A stretch of DNA of 22,648 bases, taken from positions 1-22,648 of IMG/VR virus record IMGVR_UViG_3300007511_000167. The stretch is one strand, 5' to 3'. Of this stretch, positions 15,470 through 22,648 are shown one piece after another (position 1 is the first letter of the stretch; each line of letters opens with the position of its first letter). The position numbers and the translations under genes are program-made. The notes beneath the pieces were generated by a model. It was not told where the DNA came from. It searched no databases and saw nothing but the letters and a program-made list of their open reading frames with translations. The DNA comes from a virus.

Positions 15470-16318
15470 TTAATCCTTTCGCTTCTGTTGTAATTCTTCT
15501 TGTGATTCACGGTCAGGCGGGGTTTCAGGGGCCCCCGTTATCGGTTCATCAATTCGCCTGTCGCCAGACTTCACCTGATTGTTGTAACTCCCTTCCAGCA
15601 CCAACAGGGCCTTGTCAGGCCGCAGGAAAAAGTCGAAGGTGGCTTTCCAGCCCCTATCGTTGATACCAAACAGGAACGCCTGCTTACTGGCTTCAGTGAA
15701 CAGCTCCACAAACCATTCGTCCGGGTGTTTCTGAAGCATCGTGTACAGTTTATCTTTCCGCTTCCCTTCGATCGAGCGGGGTTGCGGTAAATCAGGTAGC
15801 AGTTTACAATACTGATCGACAACATAGTCCGCTCGCTGGGCGAGCAGCTTCTTTTTCAATTCAGGTTTACCTTTCACTTTAAGTTTCTTTTTATATTTAA
15901 CGGGGGGTGTAGCTGCCCTATCAATAGGGTGTTCATAGGGTATAGCTAAGTGACTGTAGTGGTCAAGCACTTGCCCGATCAGCCAGTCGTCAGAACATTC
16001 CGACAGGGACTTCCCTAATGACTTCAGGATCATAGGGCTGGTGGATGACTGGTGCTTTATGAAGTTTACAACCCACACCCAAGCTCCGCTGACAACAACC
16101 TTGTGGGCCTCCTCGAGTATACCCATAGCCTTATCAATCTGGCTATCTGGCAAGGCTGTGTCCATGCGGATTTCCATAGGCGACCATTCAAACAAGCCAG
16201 CATTATTCGCCAGCGGCCCTGTGAACAGGTAGTTGTAAAACCCCTTCACCAGAAAGGGTTGACCTAGCAGCCAAGGGTCCCTCCAGAACCCTCTTGCTTT
16301 TATGGTTCGGTAGTTCAT
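15470..16318 (-). CDS. Replication initiator (lambda O / replisome organiser type)
   Basis: This 282-residue protein starts at ATG 16318 (MNYRTIKARGFWRDPWLLGQ), overlapping the ERF gene's stop. Residues 10-90 look like a winged-helix N-terminal domain of phage replication initiators (YNYLFTGPLANNAGLFEW, helix pair, WVWVVNFIKHQSSTSP). Residues 125-165 are a basic linker (VKYKKKLKVKGKPELKKKLL). The end has R-G-W-K-A-T-F-D-F-F-L-R-P-D-K-A-L-L-V-L-E-G, the C-terminal signature of such proteins, which contact the helicase or its loader. Its own gene carries an iteron-like, A/T-rich element in the linker region, as lambda O does. No helicase or loader gene is seen in the window. Confidence 0.7.
   Translation of the reverse strand: MNYRTIKARGFWRDPWLLGQPFLVKGFYNYLFTGPLANNAGLFEWSPMEIRMDTALPDSQIDKAMGILEEAHKVVVSGAWVWVVNFIKHQSSTSPMILKSLGKSLSECSDDWLIGQVLDHYSHLAIPYEHPIDRAATPPVKYKKKLKVKGKPELKKKLLAQRADYVVDQYCKLLPDLPQPRSIEGKRKDKLYTMLQKHPDEWFVELFTEASKQAFLFGINDRGWKATFDFFLRPDKALLVLEGSYNNQVKSGDRRIDEPITGAPETPPDRESQEELQQKRKD
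15868..15945. other. Candidate replication origin inside the initiator gene
   Basis: An A/T-rich stretch (15868-15900) abuts G6 (15902-15907). Eight bases later come CCCTATC, one base, ATAGGGT, four bases, ATAGGGTATAG (15916-15945). These repeats of ATAGGGT and its complement look like iterons. The same G6, eight-base gap, CCCTATC-N-ATAGGGTATAG core occurs at 9668-9700, there without the extra repeat. Location in the middle of an initiator gene is the lambda pattern. The conserved element is also part of the coding sequence. Confidence 0.5.
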
Positions 16319-17640
16319 TTCACACCTTTCGGGAACTTCTTGGCCCACTCGGCTGCAAGCCGTTGAGCTTCCGGCAGGTCGCTTTCCTGCATGTCCGGGA
16401 TGGTTTTAATGTGCAGGCCCAGACAGATGTAGCGAGCGATAGCTCCTGCGTTCTTTTTGAATAACGCTTCGGTGCGGTCGTCAGGTAACAGGGTAGCCAG
16501 AACCGCCCGGTTCATGTTACGCAACTTCTCGAGCGACTCTTCGGTGATCGGTTCAAGTGGAGCGGGCTTTGCGTTATCGTCCGGGTGTCCACCGGGAACC
16601 TCCTCGGCAGCTTCCTCTTCAGCCTGTTCCGGTTCAGCGGGTTTGTTATCACGAATCCATTTCAACACATGGTTTTCAGCGTCCGTGATTTCGTTCTGCC
16701 TGATTTCCGAAATGGTTGAAAGGTTCATGGTTTCCATCAGGTAGGTCACGAGTTCAGCGGCTTTCTTCTTCCGGGCCGCAGGGGTAAGGTCGCTGAATGT
16801 TTCTGCGATCTGCTTCCTGTAGGACTTTTGAAAAGCCTTCTCCTGCTCTACCGTCATAGTTGGCACTTCAACCCCTTCACCCCCGGGGGCCGCTTTTGTC
16901 GCCTTATCGGTCGCTGGCGGGGCCGGAATAAAGCCCGGGGCCCTTGTTGCCAATATCAGAGCGTCATGCTGCTCAGGGGCTGCCATTTTCAGGTCACCGA
17001 TATTGAACTTATCGCAGAGCCTGTGCATAGCCCCTTCCATCTCTTCCTTCGCTTCGGGTGTTCCTTTCTGCCATCCACCGAGATAGACTGCGTTCATAAT
17101 CGCCCGCTTCACAGCGACTTCCCGGTCAGCGTCCGTCAGGGGCCGGGCCACTGCCACCTGAGCCCCCCCTTCAGCGTCCATCGAATCACCAGCAATTTGG
17201 AAAGTTTGGATAGCCCAATACTTGTACGCCCCGGTCAGGGCTTTGTATAGAGCCTTGTCACCAGTATCGTTCCCCTGACCCGGGGCTGTCGATTCCTCGT
17301 AATCACCAGACTCAATATCTGTCAGGGTGTACTTCATCATAACCGTGACCCGGGCCGCAGGCTTCCCGGAAGTTGTTTGAATGGTTTCAGTCTCCATAGT
17401 CAGGCAGTCGGTTTTCACAACCAGACCAAGATCAGCAAGTAGATCCTTCAGGCTCGCCAGAATGTCATCTGCCTGAACGAACCAGTAGCCGGAGTGATCG
17501 TTGTAGCCGTTCTTTTCGACAACCAGCCGGGATAACACCTGATGCTTCTTGGCGAGCAAGCCCTCCAGTGGTTCAGCGTGAGTCGGTGGTTTGTTCACGA
17601 TTTTTGTCGGGGGCTTCTTAGCCTTTCGTTGCCCGGCCAT
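16315..17640 (-). CDS. ERF-family single-strand annealing protein
   Basis: This 441-residue protein should anneal complementary single strands during phage recombination. The ERF core is clear at residues 25-155: helix (LLAKKHQVLSRLVVEKNGYN), then a strand pair, M-K-Y-T-L-T-D-I-E-S-G-D, then the hallmark G-Q-G-N-D-T-G-D-K-A-L-Y-K-A-L-T and Y-K-Y-W-A-I-Q-T-F. Residues 160-441 are a long variable part with an acidic linker (EPEQAEEEAAEEVPGGH) and a C-terminal helical domain. Start ATG 17640 overlaps the previous stop (TAATG) and follows AGGTG; an ATG five codons upstream is possible. The initiator gene follows at once, so recombination and replication are expressed together. Confidence 0.85.
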   Translation of the reverse strand: MAGQRKAKKPPTKIVNKPPTHAEPLEGLLAKKHQVLSRLVVEKNGYNDHSGYWFVQADDILASLKDLLADLGLVVKTDCLTMETETIQTTSGKPAARVTVMMKYTLTDIESGDYEESTAPGQGNDTGDKALYKALTGAYKYWAIQTFQIAGDSMDAEGGAQVAVARPLTDADREVAVKRAIMNAVYLGGWQKGTPEAKEEMEGAMHRLCDKFNIGDLKMAAPEQHDALILATRAPGFIPAPPATDKATKAAPGGEGVEVPTMTVEQEKAFQKSYRKQIAETFSDLTPAARKKKAAELVTYLMETMNLSTISEIRQNEITDAENHVLKWIRDNKPAEPEQAEEEAAEEVPGGHPDDNAKPAPLEPITEESLEKLRNMNRAVLATLLPDDRTEALFKKNAGAIARYICLGLHIKTIPDMQESDLPEAQRLAAEWAKKFPKGVK

Positions 17641-18545
17641 TATAACACCTGCCATTCTTCGGGAGCGTCAAGCCCTGTGGAATGCAGGTGAGCGTCCGTG
17701 ACTTCATCGTAAACATCCGGGTAATTATGAATAAGATACTGGCTTACCCAGCTCAGGAAGTCCGGGTTGGTTGCCACCCGCCCGGCCTCCGGCACAAAGG
17801 TGGTATTATCCGAAGCTGTCTCCGGAGCCGGGGCCTCAGCCGCCACCCCAACAGTCTCCTCCCCGAGCTTCAGTGTTTCTTCACGCTGGTTCTGTTCGGC
17901 TTCACGCCTGTCAAGTTCGGCCTGCTTTTCCCGGAGCCGTTTGGCCTGTGCTTCCTGCTCTTCTTTCTGGAACTCGAAATCCAACCGCTCCTGTTCAGCC
18001 TTCTCGGCTTCGTCAATAGCTGTCTGGATAGCACTCAGGCCAGCGATCTTCAGCTTAACGGCCTCTTCGTAACGATCACCGAAGTAATCCTTATCCAGCT
18101 CGTCAGCTTCGACAAGGCCCTTCCTGATCCGCAGGTCTGACAGGTTTTCACCCTGTACCGCCACCGGGAGCCCCCGGAGAGCTTCCAGACGGTTTTCCAG
18201 TTCCCGGGCTGCCCGCTCGATCTCCGCATCGTAGTGGGCCTTCTTCCTCGCCAGCGGCCCCTCGATCTCCAGCACCTTAGCAGTCAGGCGTTTCCCTTCC
18301 GCTTCAATGGCCCGGCCCACTTCCAGAACAGGGGCTTTCAGTTCCTTCCTGCGCTTATCAATCCCGGTACGGACTTTTACAACAGCCCGGAGCCCTGTAG
18401 CCAGACGGTTGTATTCCGGGGCCTCCGTAATGTCCAGCTCCAGTAGCGGTTCCATTTGCTTCCGGAGTTCGTTGATCTCAACTTCTCCAACTTCGTACTT
18501 CTCAAGTTCTTGCTGGACGAGTTCAGATGTAGCATGGTCAGTCAT
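17640..18545 (-). CDS. Coiled-coil protein beside ERF (DUF1351-like)
   Basis: This 301-residue protein, starting at ATG 18545 (MTDHATSELVQQELEKYEVG), is mostly helical and coiled coil: LVQQELEKYEVGEVEINEL, KGLVEADELDKDYFGDRYEE, KEEQEAQAKRLREKQAELDR. Its order (helical N-terminal segment with K-x-R-T-x-I-D-K-R-R-K-E-L-K-A-P, then D-Y-F-G-D-R-Y/W) and its location next to the annealing protein match DUF1351-type phage proteins, which are thought to assist recombination. The C-terminal 60 residues (FLSWVSQYLIHNYPDVYDEV) form another short domain. The ATG overlaps the previous stop, with AAGGAAC upstream. Confidence 0.6.
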   Translation of the reverse strand: MTDHATSELVQQELEKYEVGEVEINELRKQMEPLLELDITEAPEYNRLATGLRAVVKVRTGIDKRRKELKAPVLEVGRAIEAEGKRLTAKVLEIEGPLARKKAHYDAEIERAARELENRLEALRGLPVAVQGENLSDLRIRKGLVEADELDKDYFGDRYEEAVKLKIAGLSAIQTAIDEAEKAEQERLDFEFQKEEQEAQAKRLREKQAELDRREAEQNQREETLKLGEETVGVAAEAPAPETASDNTTFVPEAGRVATNPDFLSWVSQYLIHNYPDVYDEVTDAHLHSTGLDAPEEWQVL

Positions 18546-18825
18546 TTTCTGTTCCTTCCGTTTTGTAAGCTCCGTCAATTAATTCCAGAGCGCATTTACA
18601 GTGGTGTTCTATAGTGTCCACCTGCCTGTTGTTAAGGCTGTTTTCGCCCTGTATTCTGAATACTACCGCTTTGATTCGGCCCATACGCTCAGCGAGTTTG
18701 CAGAGCCTGTTCAGGTAGTACTCTCGTTCCGAATGTTCCACTTTAAGTTCTCCTATTTTTAACTTGACAAGGGGCGAAGGATTAAGATATTGAGTGCGTT
18801 GGGAACGATTAACTTCGGTTATCAT
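18538..18825 (-). CDS. Hypothetical protein, 95 residues
   Basis: Unrecognised. It is helical in the centre (EREYYLNRLCKLAERMGRIK) and has Cys residues near the end (EHHCKCALELIDGAY). The ATG at 18825 is preceded by AAAGGAGTCGAGA, the extended RBS motif, and by a hairpin whose loop region repeats the motif GGAGTCGAA. It runs into the coiled-coil gene by an eight-base overlap. Confidence 0.5.
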   Translation of the reverse strand: MITEVNRSQRTQYLNPSPLVKLKIGELKVEHSEREYYLNRLCKLAERMGRIKAVVFRIQGENSLNNRQVDTIEHHCKCALELIDGAYKTEGTEND

Positions 18826-18839
18826 TCTCGACTCCTTTA

Positions 18840-18865
18840 CCCCGGCTTCGACTCCGGGGTTTTTT
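18840..18865 (+). terminator. Intrinsic-terminator-like hairpin pointing to the plus strand
   Basis: CCCCGG, an eight-base loop (CTTCGACT), CCGGGG and then six T residues. In plus orientation this is a classic intrinsic terminator, though no plus-strand gene lies nearby. On the minus strand, the transcribed side, it is a hairpin without a T tract; its loop contains GGAGTCGAA, the same motif as the following RBS. It overlaps the last codons of the ribbon-helix-helix-like gene. Confidence 0.45.
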
Positions 18866-19867: not shown

Positions 19868-19933
19868 CTCGGACTCCTTTGTGAAATGTTATGCGGCCTG
19901 TCTTATCAACGGGGGGCGGCCAACCCGGCCCGG

Positions 19934-19951
19934 AAGCCCCCGAAGGGGCTT
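19934..19951. terminator. UUCG-loop hairpin after the 58-residue gene
   Basis: On the minus strand this reads AAGCCCC, TTCG, GGGGCTT, a seven-pair stem closed by the extra-stable C(UUCG)G tetraloop, starting seven bases after the gene's stop. There are only two T residues after it on the minus strand, but three to four on the plus side. It could stall polymerase or protect the mRNA end; as an intrinsic terminator it is weak in the minus direction. Confidence 0.4.
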
Positions 19952-19957
19952 TTCGAC

Positions 19958-20134
19958 TTATACTCTGGCAGCAGCGGGCCCGGGGTACTTGTCACCTACC
20001 AGAGCCCGGGGGGAATTTATCAGGATTCCACCCTTCTGTTTCCGAACCTTTTTTGCAGCATACAGGCTGCCCTTAAATACAACCGCCCCGTTTACCACGA
20101 GGCCGTACTGTGAACTGGAGATTGTTTTCGCCAT
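19958..20134 (-). CDS. Hypothetical protein, 58 residues
   Basis: The start at ATG 20134 is preceded by AAAGGAGTCGGTC; the frame extends eight codons upstream, but the RBS decides for 20134. The sequence MAKTISSSQYGLVVNGAVVF followed by KGSLYAAKKVRKQKGG looks like a short beta hairpin plus a basic tail, similar in style to small nucleic-acid-binding domains. Function unknown. It lies just downstream of a strong terminator (20213-20183), so it needs read-through or its own promoter. Confidence 0.5.
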   Translation of the reverse strand: MAKTISSSQYGLVVNGAVVFKGSLYAAKKVRKQKGGILINSPRALVGDKYPGPAAARV

Positions 20135-20166: not shown

Positions 20167-20210
20167 CAGGACAGTAACATACAAAAAAAAGCCCCCCTAC
20201 CGGGGGGGGG
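20167..20210. repeat. Inverted repeat, left arm (44 bases, perfect)
   Basis: This arm begins CAGGACAGTAACATAC, followed by A8, GCCCCCC, TACC and at least nine G. Its exact reverse complement lies at 20961-21004. The arms face each other across 750 bases holding one gene. Within the arm, C6-TACC-G6 can fold as a hairpin with the A8/T8 tract on the outer side. Confidence 0.85.
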
Positions 20211-20213
20211 GGC
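20183..20213 (-). terminator. Intrinsic terminator after the H1-like gene
   Basis: On the minus strand a C-rich run, GGTA, GGGGGG and C precede eight T residues: a strong GC stem followed by a T tract, placed 17 bases after the gene's stop. It is part of the left inverted-repeat arm. Genes further downstream on the same strand need read-through, antitermination or a promoter. Confidence 0.7.
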
Positions 20214-20229
20214 GTTGACCGGGTTTCGG

Positions 20230-20943
20230 TTATTTCTTAGCCTTCGCTTTTTTGTCGGCTTTTGCGGCCTTGACGGGCTTGGATTTACCCTTCGGGGCCT
20301 TGGTTACTTTCCCTTTCTTCGGGGCGGTGACGGCCTTCTTGGTGGTCTTCTTGGCCGGGGCCTTTTTTGCGGCCTTCTTGACCGGGGTAGCCTTGTCAGC
20401 GGAGGCCTTTGTCATGTGACACAGAACGCCACCTTCCACCCGCTCATACTTAAAGGCTTTCGGGAACCTGCGCTTGGCAGCCCGGTTCGGGGCTTTGCAG
20501 GAAACCAACATATTTCCGTCAGGCTGCTCGGTGACAGTGACCGGGCTCCGCTCCTTGCCCCTGCGGCTCTTCTGGCGATCTTCGACCAGAAAGTCAAAGG
20601 CCCCGGGCTTTCCTACCAGACGCTCAACTTCCAGTTCAGGGAAATCCACTTCAAAATGAACTACCCAGTTTTCACCGCTATCGGTATCCCGTGTTTTGTC
20701 GCCTCTCCTGAGCAGAGTAGCGGGGCCAACTTCGACTTCCAGCTTGTCCTGATTAAAGGCTTCTGTGACGACTGTTCCGGCTTTCAGGTTCTTCATTTTC
20801 GACTCCTTTGAATTGGTAACGGGTTTCTTCTTACTACTGTCAACATAGTCAACTGCTGCTTGTACTGCTGCCTTAGCGTCCTTCAGGTTGGGTTTGGTGT
20901 GCTTGACAGCGGTCTTCTTGGTAGCACTTTTTTTCGACTTCAT
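20230..20943 (-). CDS. Histone-H1-like protein with internal in-frame start
   Basis: This is a 237-residue, strongly basic protein. Residues 1-49 are a Lys-rich leader domain (MKSKKSATKKTAVKHTKPNL, KDAKAAVQAAVDYVDSSKKK). Residues 50-178 form an alpha/beta core (VVTEAFNQDKLEVEVGPATL, ENWVVHFEVDFPELEVERLV) that I do not recognise. Residues 185-237 are Lys/Ala/Pro/Thr repeats like the tail of histone H1 or bacterial H1-like proteins. A complete RBS motif and ATG at 20796 sit in frame, so a 188-residue form lacking the leader is likely made too. Such tails bind DNA non-specifically; condensing phage or host DNA is plausible. It is the only gene between the inverted-repeat arms. Confidence 0.65.
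   Translation of the reverse strand: MKSKKSATKKTAVKHTKPNLKDAKAAVQAAVDYVDSSKKKPVTNSKESKMKNLKAGTVVTEAFNQDKLEVEVGPATLLRRGDKTRDTDSGENWVVHFEVDFPELEVERLVGKPGAFDFLVEDRQKSRRGKERSPVTVTEQPDGNMLVSCKAPNRAAKRRFPKAFKYERVEGGVLCHMTKASADKATPVKKAAKKAPAKKTTKKAVTAPKKGKVTKAPKGKSKPVKAAKADKKAKAKK
20794..20809 (-). promoter_or_regulatory. Internal ribosome-binding site and start codon in the H1-like gene
   Basis: AAAGGAGTCGAAAATG on the minus strand, identical to the motif at the start of this gene (20943) and others nearby. It lies inside the open frame, where it is read as Lys-Glu-Ser-Lys-Met. The ATG at 20796 would begin a 188-residue product. It suggests that two genes once separated by this RBS became fused, or that both forms are needed. 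Confidence 0.65.
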
Positions 20944-20960
20944 TTTCGACTCCTTTCAAG

Positions 20961-21004
20961 CCCCCCCCCCGGTAGGGGGGCTTTTTTTTGTATGTTACTG
21001 TCCT
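20961..21004. repeat. Inverted repeat, right arm (44 bases, perfect)
   Basis: This arm is nine C residues, GGTA, GGGGGG, C, T8 and then GTATGTTACTGTCCTG, the exact reverse complement of 20167-20210. In plus orientation it is a terminator-type hairpin followed by T8. On the minus strand it lies in the leader of the H1-like gene, 10 bases before the Shine-Dalgarno site, where it could form a hairpin or pair with the other arm in the mRNA. Confidence 0.85.
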
Positions 21005-21013
21005 GGTAAAATG

Positions 21014-21220
21014 TTATGAGTGAAGCTTCTTCAGTTCAATTTTCAGGTCACGGATTTCTTCACGGTAGGCCATCAGTGATTCGTGACTTTCGCAGGCCTC
21101 TTCATCGTACCCGGCCCCGGTTGCCAGCTTCATATCCCTTTCGGCTTCAGCGGCAAATTTTTTGAGCTGAGAAATTTCGGCCTTAATTTCTGCGGCCCGG
21201 CTTGTGTTTTGGATCGTCAT
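21014..21220 (-). CDS. Small coiled-coil protein, 68 residues
   Basis: It is almost entirely helical: MTIQNTSRAAEIKAEISQLK, KFAAEAERDMKLATGAG, then MAYREEIRDLKIELKKLHS. It is likely a short coiled coil or helical hairpin that dimerises. The ATG at 21220 carries a perfect RBS motif (AAAAGGAGTCGAAAATG). Function unknown. It ends ten bases before the right inverted-repeat arm. Confidence 0.55.
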   Translation of the reverse strand: MTIQNTSRAAEIKAEISQLKKFAAEAERDMKLATGAGYDEEACESHESLMAYREEIRDLKIELKKLHS

Positions 21221-21408
21221 TTTCGACTCCTTTTTGTGATGACAAAAGCGGCTTCAAAGAACGCATTATTAACGGGTTTAATCCTGACAATGTAAAGGGG
21301 TTTATGCAAGGGTTTTATTACGCCCGCTTCAAGGGCATACAAAAACAGAGTGATGGGAGGGAAGAAAAATCTTCTAAAAAGCCTGTTAGAGTGCCAAATC
21401 CCGGTCAT
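21217..21408 (-). CDS. Doubtful small reading frame, 63 residues
   Basis: The frame between the radical SAM gene and the 68-residue gene runs MTGIWHSNRLFRRFFFPPIT to KRSRK and ends in ATGA with the next start. There is no good Shine-Dalgarno site, and the ATG at 21408 lies inside the radical SAM gene. The region is A/T-rich and contains a candidate promoter, so it may simply be untranslated. Confidence 0.25.
   Translation of the reverse strand: MTGIWHSNRLFRRFFFPPITLFLYALEAGVIKPLHKPLYIVRIKPVNNAFFEAAFVITKRSRK
21268..21296 (-). promoter_or_regulatory. Candidate promoter upstream of the 68-residue gene
   Basis: TTTACA (21296-21291), 17 bases, GTTAAT (21273-21268) on the minus strand, within an A/T-rich gap. 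The -35 matches consensus at five of six bases and the -10 at four. The transcript would start near 21261, giving a leader of about 40 bases. It would feed the H1-like gene cassette. Modest support only. Confidence 0.3.
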
Positions 21409-22648
21409 ATTTGTATATAACATTCCCCTCATCGTCAATTCCTTCAGGGCGCAAAACTCCACCGAAGTACTTGTAAGGGCTGTGTAGGCTGTTTGGCGTG
21501 TTCCAGGCGGCTCTGACATACTCGTACATGGTCTGGGTTGAACGCTTCACCCGGTTCACCTGATTGTTCGTGTTGAACCCGGTTGCATTTCGCCAGAGGA
21601 AGTGCTTAAATAATTCCGCATCAGGGGCGATGTCTGACCAGTACACAACCCCGTTTTCCTTTGCGATCATCAGGGCCTCTGTGAACTGACCCTTGTTGTA
21701 GGGCATGTCTGGAGGGAGGCCACAGCAGGCCCCCGTGCAACCCTGTTCTTTATGGTGTGCATCACTTACATGAAATTTCAAACCGACCCGGTCACAGGCC
21801 GCTTTCATATCAGCTATGAAGGGGGCTTTCACATTCCGGTTCAACCGCAGGTAGCCACCACCCTTTGACAGCTTCTTGTACATCCCCACAATATCAAAAC
21901 CCAGAGCGTCAGCCATTATCTGGTAGCTTTTTTTAACCGTTTCATTACTCCGCTGTTCCAGACAGAAGAACTCCGTGCTGACGGCAGAGGCCCCGGCCCC
22001 GGCAGCCTGCTCAATCAATTTAATGTGATCCCCGTTGGTGTCACTCATACCGATTATAAACGGGCGCAACCGGAGAACCGCCCCGGCGCAATCGAGCTCC
22101 GCTATTTTCCTTATAGCTTCCAGCCGCTCCTGCGGGCTCGGCACTCCAGCCTCCACTTTCGCCGCTACTTTTGGGTCCAAATTAATTATCGAAAACATGA
22201 ACACCCAGTTCTTCTGGCCCCTGATCAGGTCAGTATACCGGGGGTCGTCCAGCCACCATGTGGCTTTAGTGCTGAATCGGAGGGGGTAGTTGATGCTCTT
22301 GAAGAACTCCATCAGTTTCAGTGTGATCCCGTGCTTCTTCTCGAAGTTACAGAACGGGTCAGTCAGCCCGCCCCACTGCATAGTCAGCCCGGCCCGGATA
22401 TACCCGTTGAATTGCGAGTTGGTTTGCAGTGTGAACAGCTTTTGAATTGCGTCTACATTCACATGCTGGACAGGCTGACAGGTCAGCGGTTCCTTGAATG
22501 TGCCACGCCCGGAAGACTTCCGGGAGGCCTTCTGGAAGATACCGAAGCAGTAGCGACAGTTGTAGGAGCATCGACTGTAAGTGTCAAAAGTCATCGGCAT
22601 AGCGCAGTCCAGAATTTCACCAGACCACCGGGGGGACATATAGTACTT
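21386..22648 (-). CDS. Radical SAM enzyme of the SplB-like family (start may lie outside the window)
   Basis: From ATG 22639 this is 417 residues, but the frame is open to the window edge and no Shine-Dalgarno site is visible, so the true start may be further upstream. C24-S-Y-N-C28-R-Y-C31 binds the 4Fe-4S cluster that cleaves S-adenosylmethionine. W-G-G-L-T-D-P-F (89-96), R-F-S-T-K-A (121-126), F-S-I-I-N-L-D (149-155) and R-P-F-I-I-G-M-S-D (192-200) match the order of the SplB (spore photoproduct lyase) superfamily. C301, C305 and C306 may bind a second metal site. The substrate is unknown; nucleic acid is the obvious candidate given the superfamily. Confidence 0.75.
   Translation of the reverse strand, partial: KYYMSPRWSGEILDCAMPMTFDTYSRCSYNCRYCFGIFQKASRKSSGRGTFKEPLTCQPVQHVNVDAIQKLFTLQTNSQFNGYIRAGLTMQWGGLTDPFCNFEKKHGITLKLMEFFKSINYPLRFSTKATWWLDDPRYTDLIRGQKNWVFMFSIINLDPKVAAKVEAGVPSPQERLEAIRKIAELDCAGAVLRLRPFIIGMSDTNGDHIKLIEQAAGAGASAVSTEFFCLEQRSNETVKKSYQIMADALGFDIVGMYKKLSKGGGYLRLNRNVKAPFIADMKAACDRVGLKFHVSDAHHKEQGCTGACCGLPPDMPYNKGQFTEALMIAKENGVVYWSDIAPDAELFKHFLWRNATGFNTNNQVNRVKRSTQTMYEYVRAAWNTPNSLHSPYKYFGGVLRPEGIDDEGNVIYKYDRDLAL

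Follow-up and report, generated by a model that had tools for sequence, protein, structure and literature searches.

A perfect inverted repeat around a single phage gene, probably formed by copying of the gene's terminator into its own leader

Template switching between inverted repeats, homogenization of their arms and inversion of the spacer between them have all been documented (PMC8604942), and the stem-loops and processed leaders of phage mRNAs, such as those of T4, have been reviewed (PMC3014915). In the literature, we found nothing that deals directly with inverted terminators around one phage gene. Here, we analyzed such an arrangement in a bacterial virus record of 22,648 bases, which was taken whole and is called the window below.

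A repeat search of the window identified a single outstanding inverted repeat, composed of two 45-nt arms that are 100% complementary (20167-20211 and 20961-21005) and separated by a 749-nt spacer. The runner-up pairs were either about 70-90% complementary and far apart, or the same two arms matched again with an offset. Across 138 further phage loci (1,346,698 bases, 1.35 Mb), the longest exact inverted repeats with arms within 5 kb reached 20 and 19 nt, indicating that the 45-nt pair did not arise by chance. Each arm combines a C/G hairpin with an outward-facing stretch made up of an A8/T8 tract and another 16 bases, and the spacer contains one long ORF on the minus strand (Table 1). This layout, a single gene enclosed by outward-facing hairpins with A8/T8 tracts, had been described in a first-pass annotation and was reproduced here. 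The exact arms of 44 bases given there proved to be a perfect pair, but the stated coordinates miss a base: 20167-20210 has its reverse complement at 20962-21005, and the match is 45 nt long.

Table 1. Positions of the features discussed in the text, numbered along the window
Feature	Position	Strand	Description
GC hairpin unrelated to the arms	18839-18860	minus	Preceded by an A-run and directly upstream of the AAAGGAGTCG box of the gene starting at 18825; layout as in the right arm
DUF932 gene leader	19872-19893	minus	CATAACATTTCACAAAGGAGTC; paralogous empty site
Left arm	20167-20211	minus	Predicted intrinsic terminator 3' of the gene (hairpin and T8, minus strand) plus 16 nt GTATGTTACTGTCCTG; presumed source copy
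237-aa ORF	20230-20943	minus	Orphan protein; a core of predicted strands (model of low confidence) between ends rich in Lys/Ala
Shorter alternative product, 188 aa	20230-20796	minus	Start would be an internal ATG in the same frame, preceded by a separate AAAGGAGTCG box (20800-20809)
Inner half of the interrupted leader	20947-20956	minus	Ribosome-binding site AAAGGAGTCG, one of eight copies in the window
Right arm	20957-21005	minus	49-nt inverted copy (CAGGACAG...GGGGCTTG) in the 5' leader; hairpin directly upstream of the AAAGGAGTCG box; terminator-like on the plus strand
Outer half of the interrupted leader	21006-21018	minus	CATAACATTTTAC; 12 of 13 bases equal to the DUF932 leader after removal of the 49 nt

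A second virus contig, IMGVR_UViG_3300009008_000147 (33,475 bases), matches the window end to end with differences at 3 of the 22,648 positions, and bears the same arm pair in unchanged orientation. Two of these differences are adjacent (20213-20214) and lie at the inner edge of the left arm, which reads CAACG-C11 in the window and CAAG-C12 in the second contig; the homopolymer length and the inner edge of this arm are therefore uncertain. In the second contig, CAAG/CTTG is part of the repeat as well, and C-run length (12 and 10) is the sole difference between the arms. The remaining difference is at the distant base 910. The two records may not be fully independent samples. Since the ends of the longer contig are identical over 119 nt (L007 1-119 and L065 19063-19181), it is probably a closed, complete genome of about 33.36 kb.

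All identified genes of the longer contig run in the same direction. Profile matches among its larger ORFs include terminase, capsid, a DnaD-like loader, nucleases, peptidases, ParB_N, a glycosyltransferase and an Erf-like annealing protein, the last encoded at 16315-17655. One neighboring gene set (window 21386-22639, minus strand, and L007 4310-6895) encodes a ParB_N protein, a TET-associated glycosyltransferase (TAGT, PF20691) and a radical-SAM protein, which suggests DNA base hypermodification; at L007 1935-2972, a phage gene product was assigned to the Peptidase_C10 family of cysteine proteases (E 1.4e-36). When relatives sharing the locus were sought, the 237-aa, DUF932 and capsid proteins each matched only the one near-identical contig. 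Relatives of the radical-SAM protein shared that gene, and once also a ParB-like gene, but not the locus, and terminase relatives were about 23-34% identical; neither was retained as a relative of the locus. Other 16-mer matches in IMG/VR (L003, L004 and L006) lay in unrelated context and were attributed to chance.

The 237-aa protein had no family match in Pfam, PHROGs or NCBIfam, and searches of phage and plasmid collections, genome contigs and PDB gave no match to it. The earlier label of 'histone-like' was borne out by a Lys/Ala-rich C-terminal tail and a Lys-rich N-terminus but not by any family assignment, and the tail resembles that of histone H1 in composition only. A single-sequence structure model was of low confidence (pLDDT 45). 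The ORF contains a second AAAGGAGTCGAAAATGAAG, in frame and 49 codons past the first, and a 188-aa product is therefore possible. The first start region recurs almost unchanged 147 nt away as the internal ribosome-binding site and ATG (20796-20809, minus strand), which could represent either a start for the second product or the relic of a small ORF fused long ago.

Past the stop codon of the 237-aa ORF, the left arm, read in the direction of the gene, presents a GC stem and then T8, as in a standard intrinsic terminator. On the basis of these features, the left arm very likely terminates transcription. In a stricter scan of the whole 33.5-kb contig, it was the only strong terminator in the gene direction, accompanied by one weak candidate. 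The gene has in this arm a predicted terminator of its own, as would be expected of a moron. No convincing promoter for the gene was detected, and promoter-like sites in the region did not exceed the shuffled expectation.

The right arm separates the 237-aa ORF from a 68-aa ORF upstream of it. In sense, this arm consists of an A8 run and a hairpin of about -21 kcal/mol directly before the ribosome-binding site, and its terminator look is confined to the complement; the earlier assignment of a minus-strand terminator after the gene and a plus-strand terminator-like element before it thus had the strand logic right. Rfam matches on this arm were weak, far below curated cut-offs, and reflected a generic terminator shape. 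The AAAGGAGTCG box serves many genes and occurs eight times on the minus strand of the window against 0.04 copies expected. Because the gene starting at 18825 has an unrelated hairpin in the same order of A-run, GC stem and box, hairpin leaders appear to be tolerated in this phage. In the mRNA, the right arm would fold into a stable hairpin in the leader, 5' of the ribosome-binding site, where it would be either tolerated or mildly useful. Such a hairpin might protect the mRNA, insulate the ribosome-binding site, block antisense transcription as a terminator on that strand, or pair with the left arm.

We then compared the interrupted leader with that of the DUF932 gene. Deletion of exactly the copied unit (20957-21005, 49 nt) joins CATAACATTTTAC to AAAGGAGTCG, and the leader without interruption reads CATAACATTTYACAAAGGAG. 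In an ungapped alignment of this restored leader with the DUF932 leader, CATAACATTTCAC followed by AAAGGAGTCC, 12 of the 13 bases before the box are equal. Shifted deletion boundaries gave a poorer match, none of 20,000 random controls reached 12/13, and the 10-mer CATAACATTT occurs exactly twice in the contig, in these two leaders. Because the boundaries came from the inverted match rather than from the DUF932 comparison, the agreement is independent, and it indicates insertion of just the right arm into a leader already in place, rather than arrival of the gene between two arms. As judged from this paralogous empty site in the same genome, the leader appears to have existed before the right arm entered it. 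The junctions have 0-1 nt of microhomology, which together with the paralogous empty site fits a templated inverted duplication. There is no target-site duplication at the junctions, whose flanks are unrelated, and no orthologous relative without the insertion was found.

Two further observations concern the leaders of this region. Paralogous leaders of the form TTTGTCAT.CA..AAAGGAGTCG precede the genes starting at 21220 and 20134. A candidate hammerhead ribozyme (19892-19958, minus strand) immediately precedes the DUF932 leader; its score against Rfam RF02276, 29.5 bits (E 0.004 for 4.1 kb searched), falls short of the cut-off of 37. The candidate has GAAA, a UUCG-capped stem III, a UUC cleavage triplet and a GUC/GAC stem II; its core reads UUGAUAA versus CUGAUGA, with U3-A8 in place of C3-G8, and MFE folding does not favor it.

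We propose, with a probability of roughly 0.64, that the repeat arose by templated inverted duplication of the gene's own terminator into its 5' leader. As such a duplication needs, the right arm repeats a nearby sequence exactly in inverted form, and its insertion point has a paralogous empty site. At first, the phage gene would have had just the left arm, an ordinary intrinsic terminator 3' of it; an inverted copy of this terminator together with 16 nt of downstream DNA, 49 nt in total, would have landed in the 5' leader about 750 bp away, and the gene itself would never have moved as a cassette. A double template switch during replication is the likely cause, and annealing-mediated repair another, with the Erf-like annealing protein providing an alternative annealing route for copying; we infer both the direction of copying and the route. 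A template switch over about 750 bp that gives exactly one inserted arm is rarer than short-range events. Since the 16 nt past the T-tract are unneeded for termination, the perfect identity of the arms would reflect either recency or repeated homogenization. A duplicated terminator had been one of three options in the first-pass annotation, and it is this option that the right arm, inserted alone as an inverted terminator copy, supports. The repeat is real and unusual, and its origin is probably ordinary.

Several other origins were weighed against templated inverted duplication. Had the gene come with both arms as one unit, as a transposon-like cassette or moron, one would expect what is seen in part: one orphan gene between terminal inverted repeats (45 nt, 100%), with a terminator downstream. 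The earlier suggestion of such an acquired cassette is, however, contradicted by the empty-site comparison, which puts the insertion at the right arm alone. Neither a target-site duplication nor a transposase had been noticed at first, and this was confirmed by the unrelated junction flanks and by Pfam and PHROGs searches, in which no transposase or site-specific recombinase appeared among the ORFs scanned (all but two large tail-gene ORFs and some small ones). Nor did a search for mobile copies of the arm return a third one in the contig, in IMG/VR or in GTDB genomes, and we regard arrival as a unit as very improbable. It is physically possible that the segment inverts, the 45-nt arms recombining so that the gene is switched on or off with respect to transcription from upstream, and the outward terminators preventing leakage in both orientations. 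The arms are perfect and would look alike after inversion, the phage encodes an Erf-like annealing protein, and inversion of spacers by inverted repeats is known (PMC8604942). Nevertheless, the segment has one orientation in both contigs (n = 2) and the arm is in no other contig, the scanned ORFs include no site-specific recombinase, and the right arm interrupts a leader, which is unnecessary for a switch; an invertible segment is therefore improbable. One might suspect that a difficult homopolymer hairpin misled the assembly or the sequencing, since two of the three contig differences fall at the arm edge. Against this, two assemblies that differ at base 910 otherwise agree, the arms have unique flanks and different C-run lengths, and the contig closes by a 119-nt overlap, possibly the assembly word length, which exceeds the arms. 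We consider such an artefact very unlikely.

The repeat might instead have been selected through mRNA or transcription, with the right arm acting as a protective 5' hairpin and antisense terminator, or with the arms pairing so as to clamp the mRNA ends. The energy model favors arm-to-arm pairing (predicted MFE of -323.6 kcal/mol, versus -266.5 when pairs are limited to 300 nt), and such pairing is possible in competition with fast local hairpins. The A-run and GC hairpin before the ribosome-binding site of the gene starting at 18825 also speak for a function of this kind. However, the local hairpins of the arms (about -20 kcal/mol each) form first during transcription. Moreover, because transcripts ended at T8 lack the outer 16 nt, pairing leaves the identity of these bases unexplained, and recency or homogenization explains it better than selection on RNA. 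We therefore think selection of this kind unlikely. It is likewise unlikely that the arms form a maintained device, in which transcription would be kept within bounds by the outward terminators and the gene flipped through Erf-mediated annealing of the arms, or in which a double-stranded arm-to-arm clamp in the mRNA would control translation and decay of a DNA-binding protein.

If templated inverted duplication is right, the locus is a clean footprint of a terminator copied backwards into a leader, where it mimics a mobile cassette, and it warns that inverted repeats around single genes need not mean mobility. Such copying would be one route by which phage leader hairpins and antisense terminators may arise, and the perfect arms are a testable substrate for inversion by phage annealing proteins.

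Compared with known systems, the left arm resembles rho-independent terminators, with a GC stem and T8 shortly past the stop codon in the gene direction, whereas the second copy is reversed before the gene and is merely a hairpin in sense. As in phage morons, a single orphan gene with its own terminator lies among unidirectional genes; no convincing promoter was identified here and no relatives without the gene were found, and a second arm inserted separately, as proposed above, would set the locus apart from morons. The structured RNA upstream of the translation start is shared with T4-type leader stem-loops (PMC3014915), but here the predicted hairpin is a copy of the gene's own terminator. 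The locus is like template-switch mutations at inverted repeats (PMC8604942) in that one sequence would have templated an inverted copy on the same molecule, yielding perfect arms. In the known cases, existing short arms with short spacers are converted, whereas the present case has a new 49-nt arm within a leader, about 750 bp from its presumed source.
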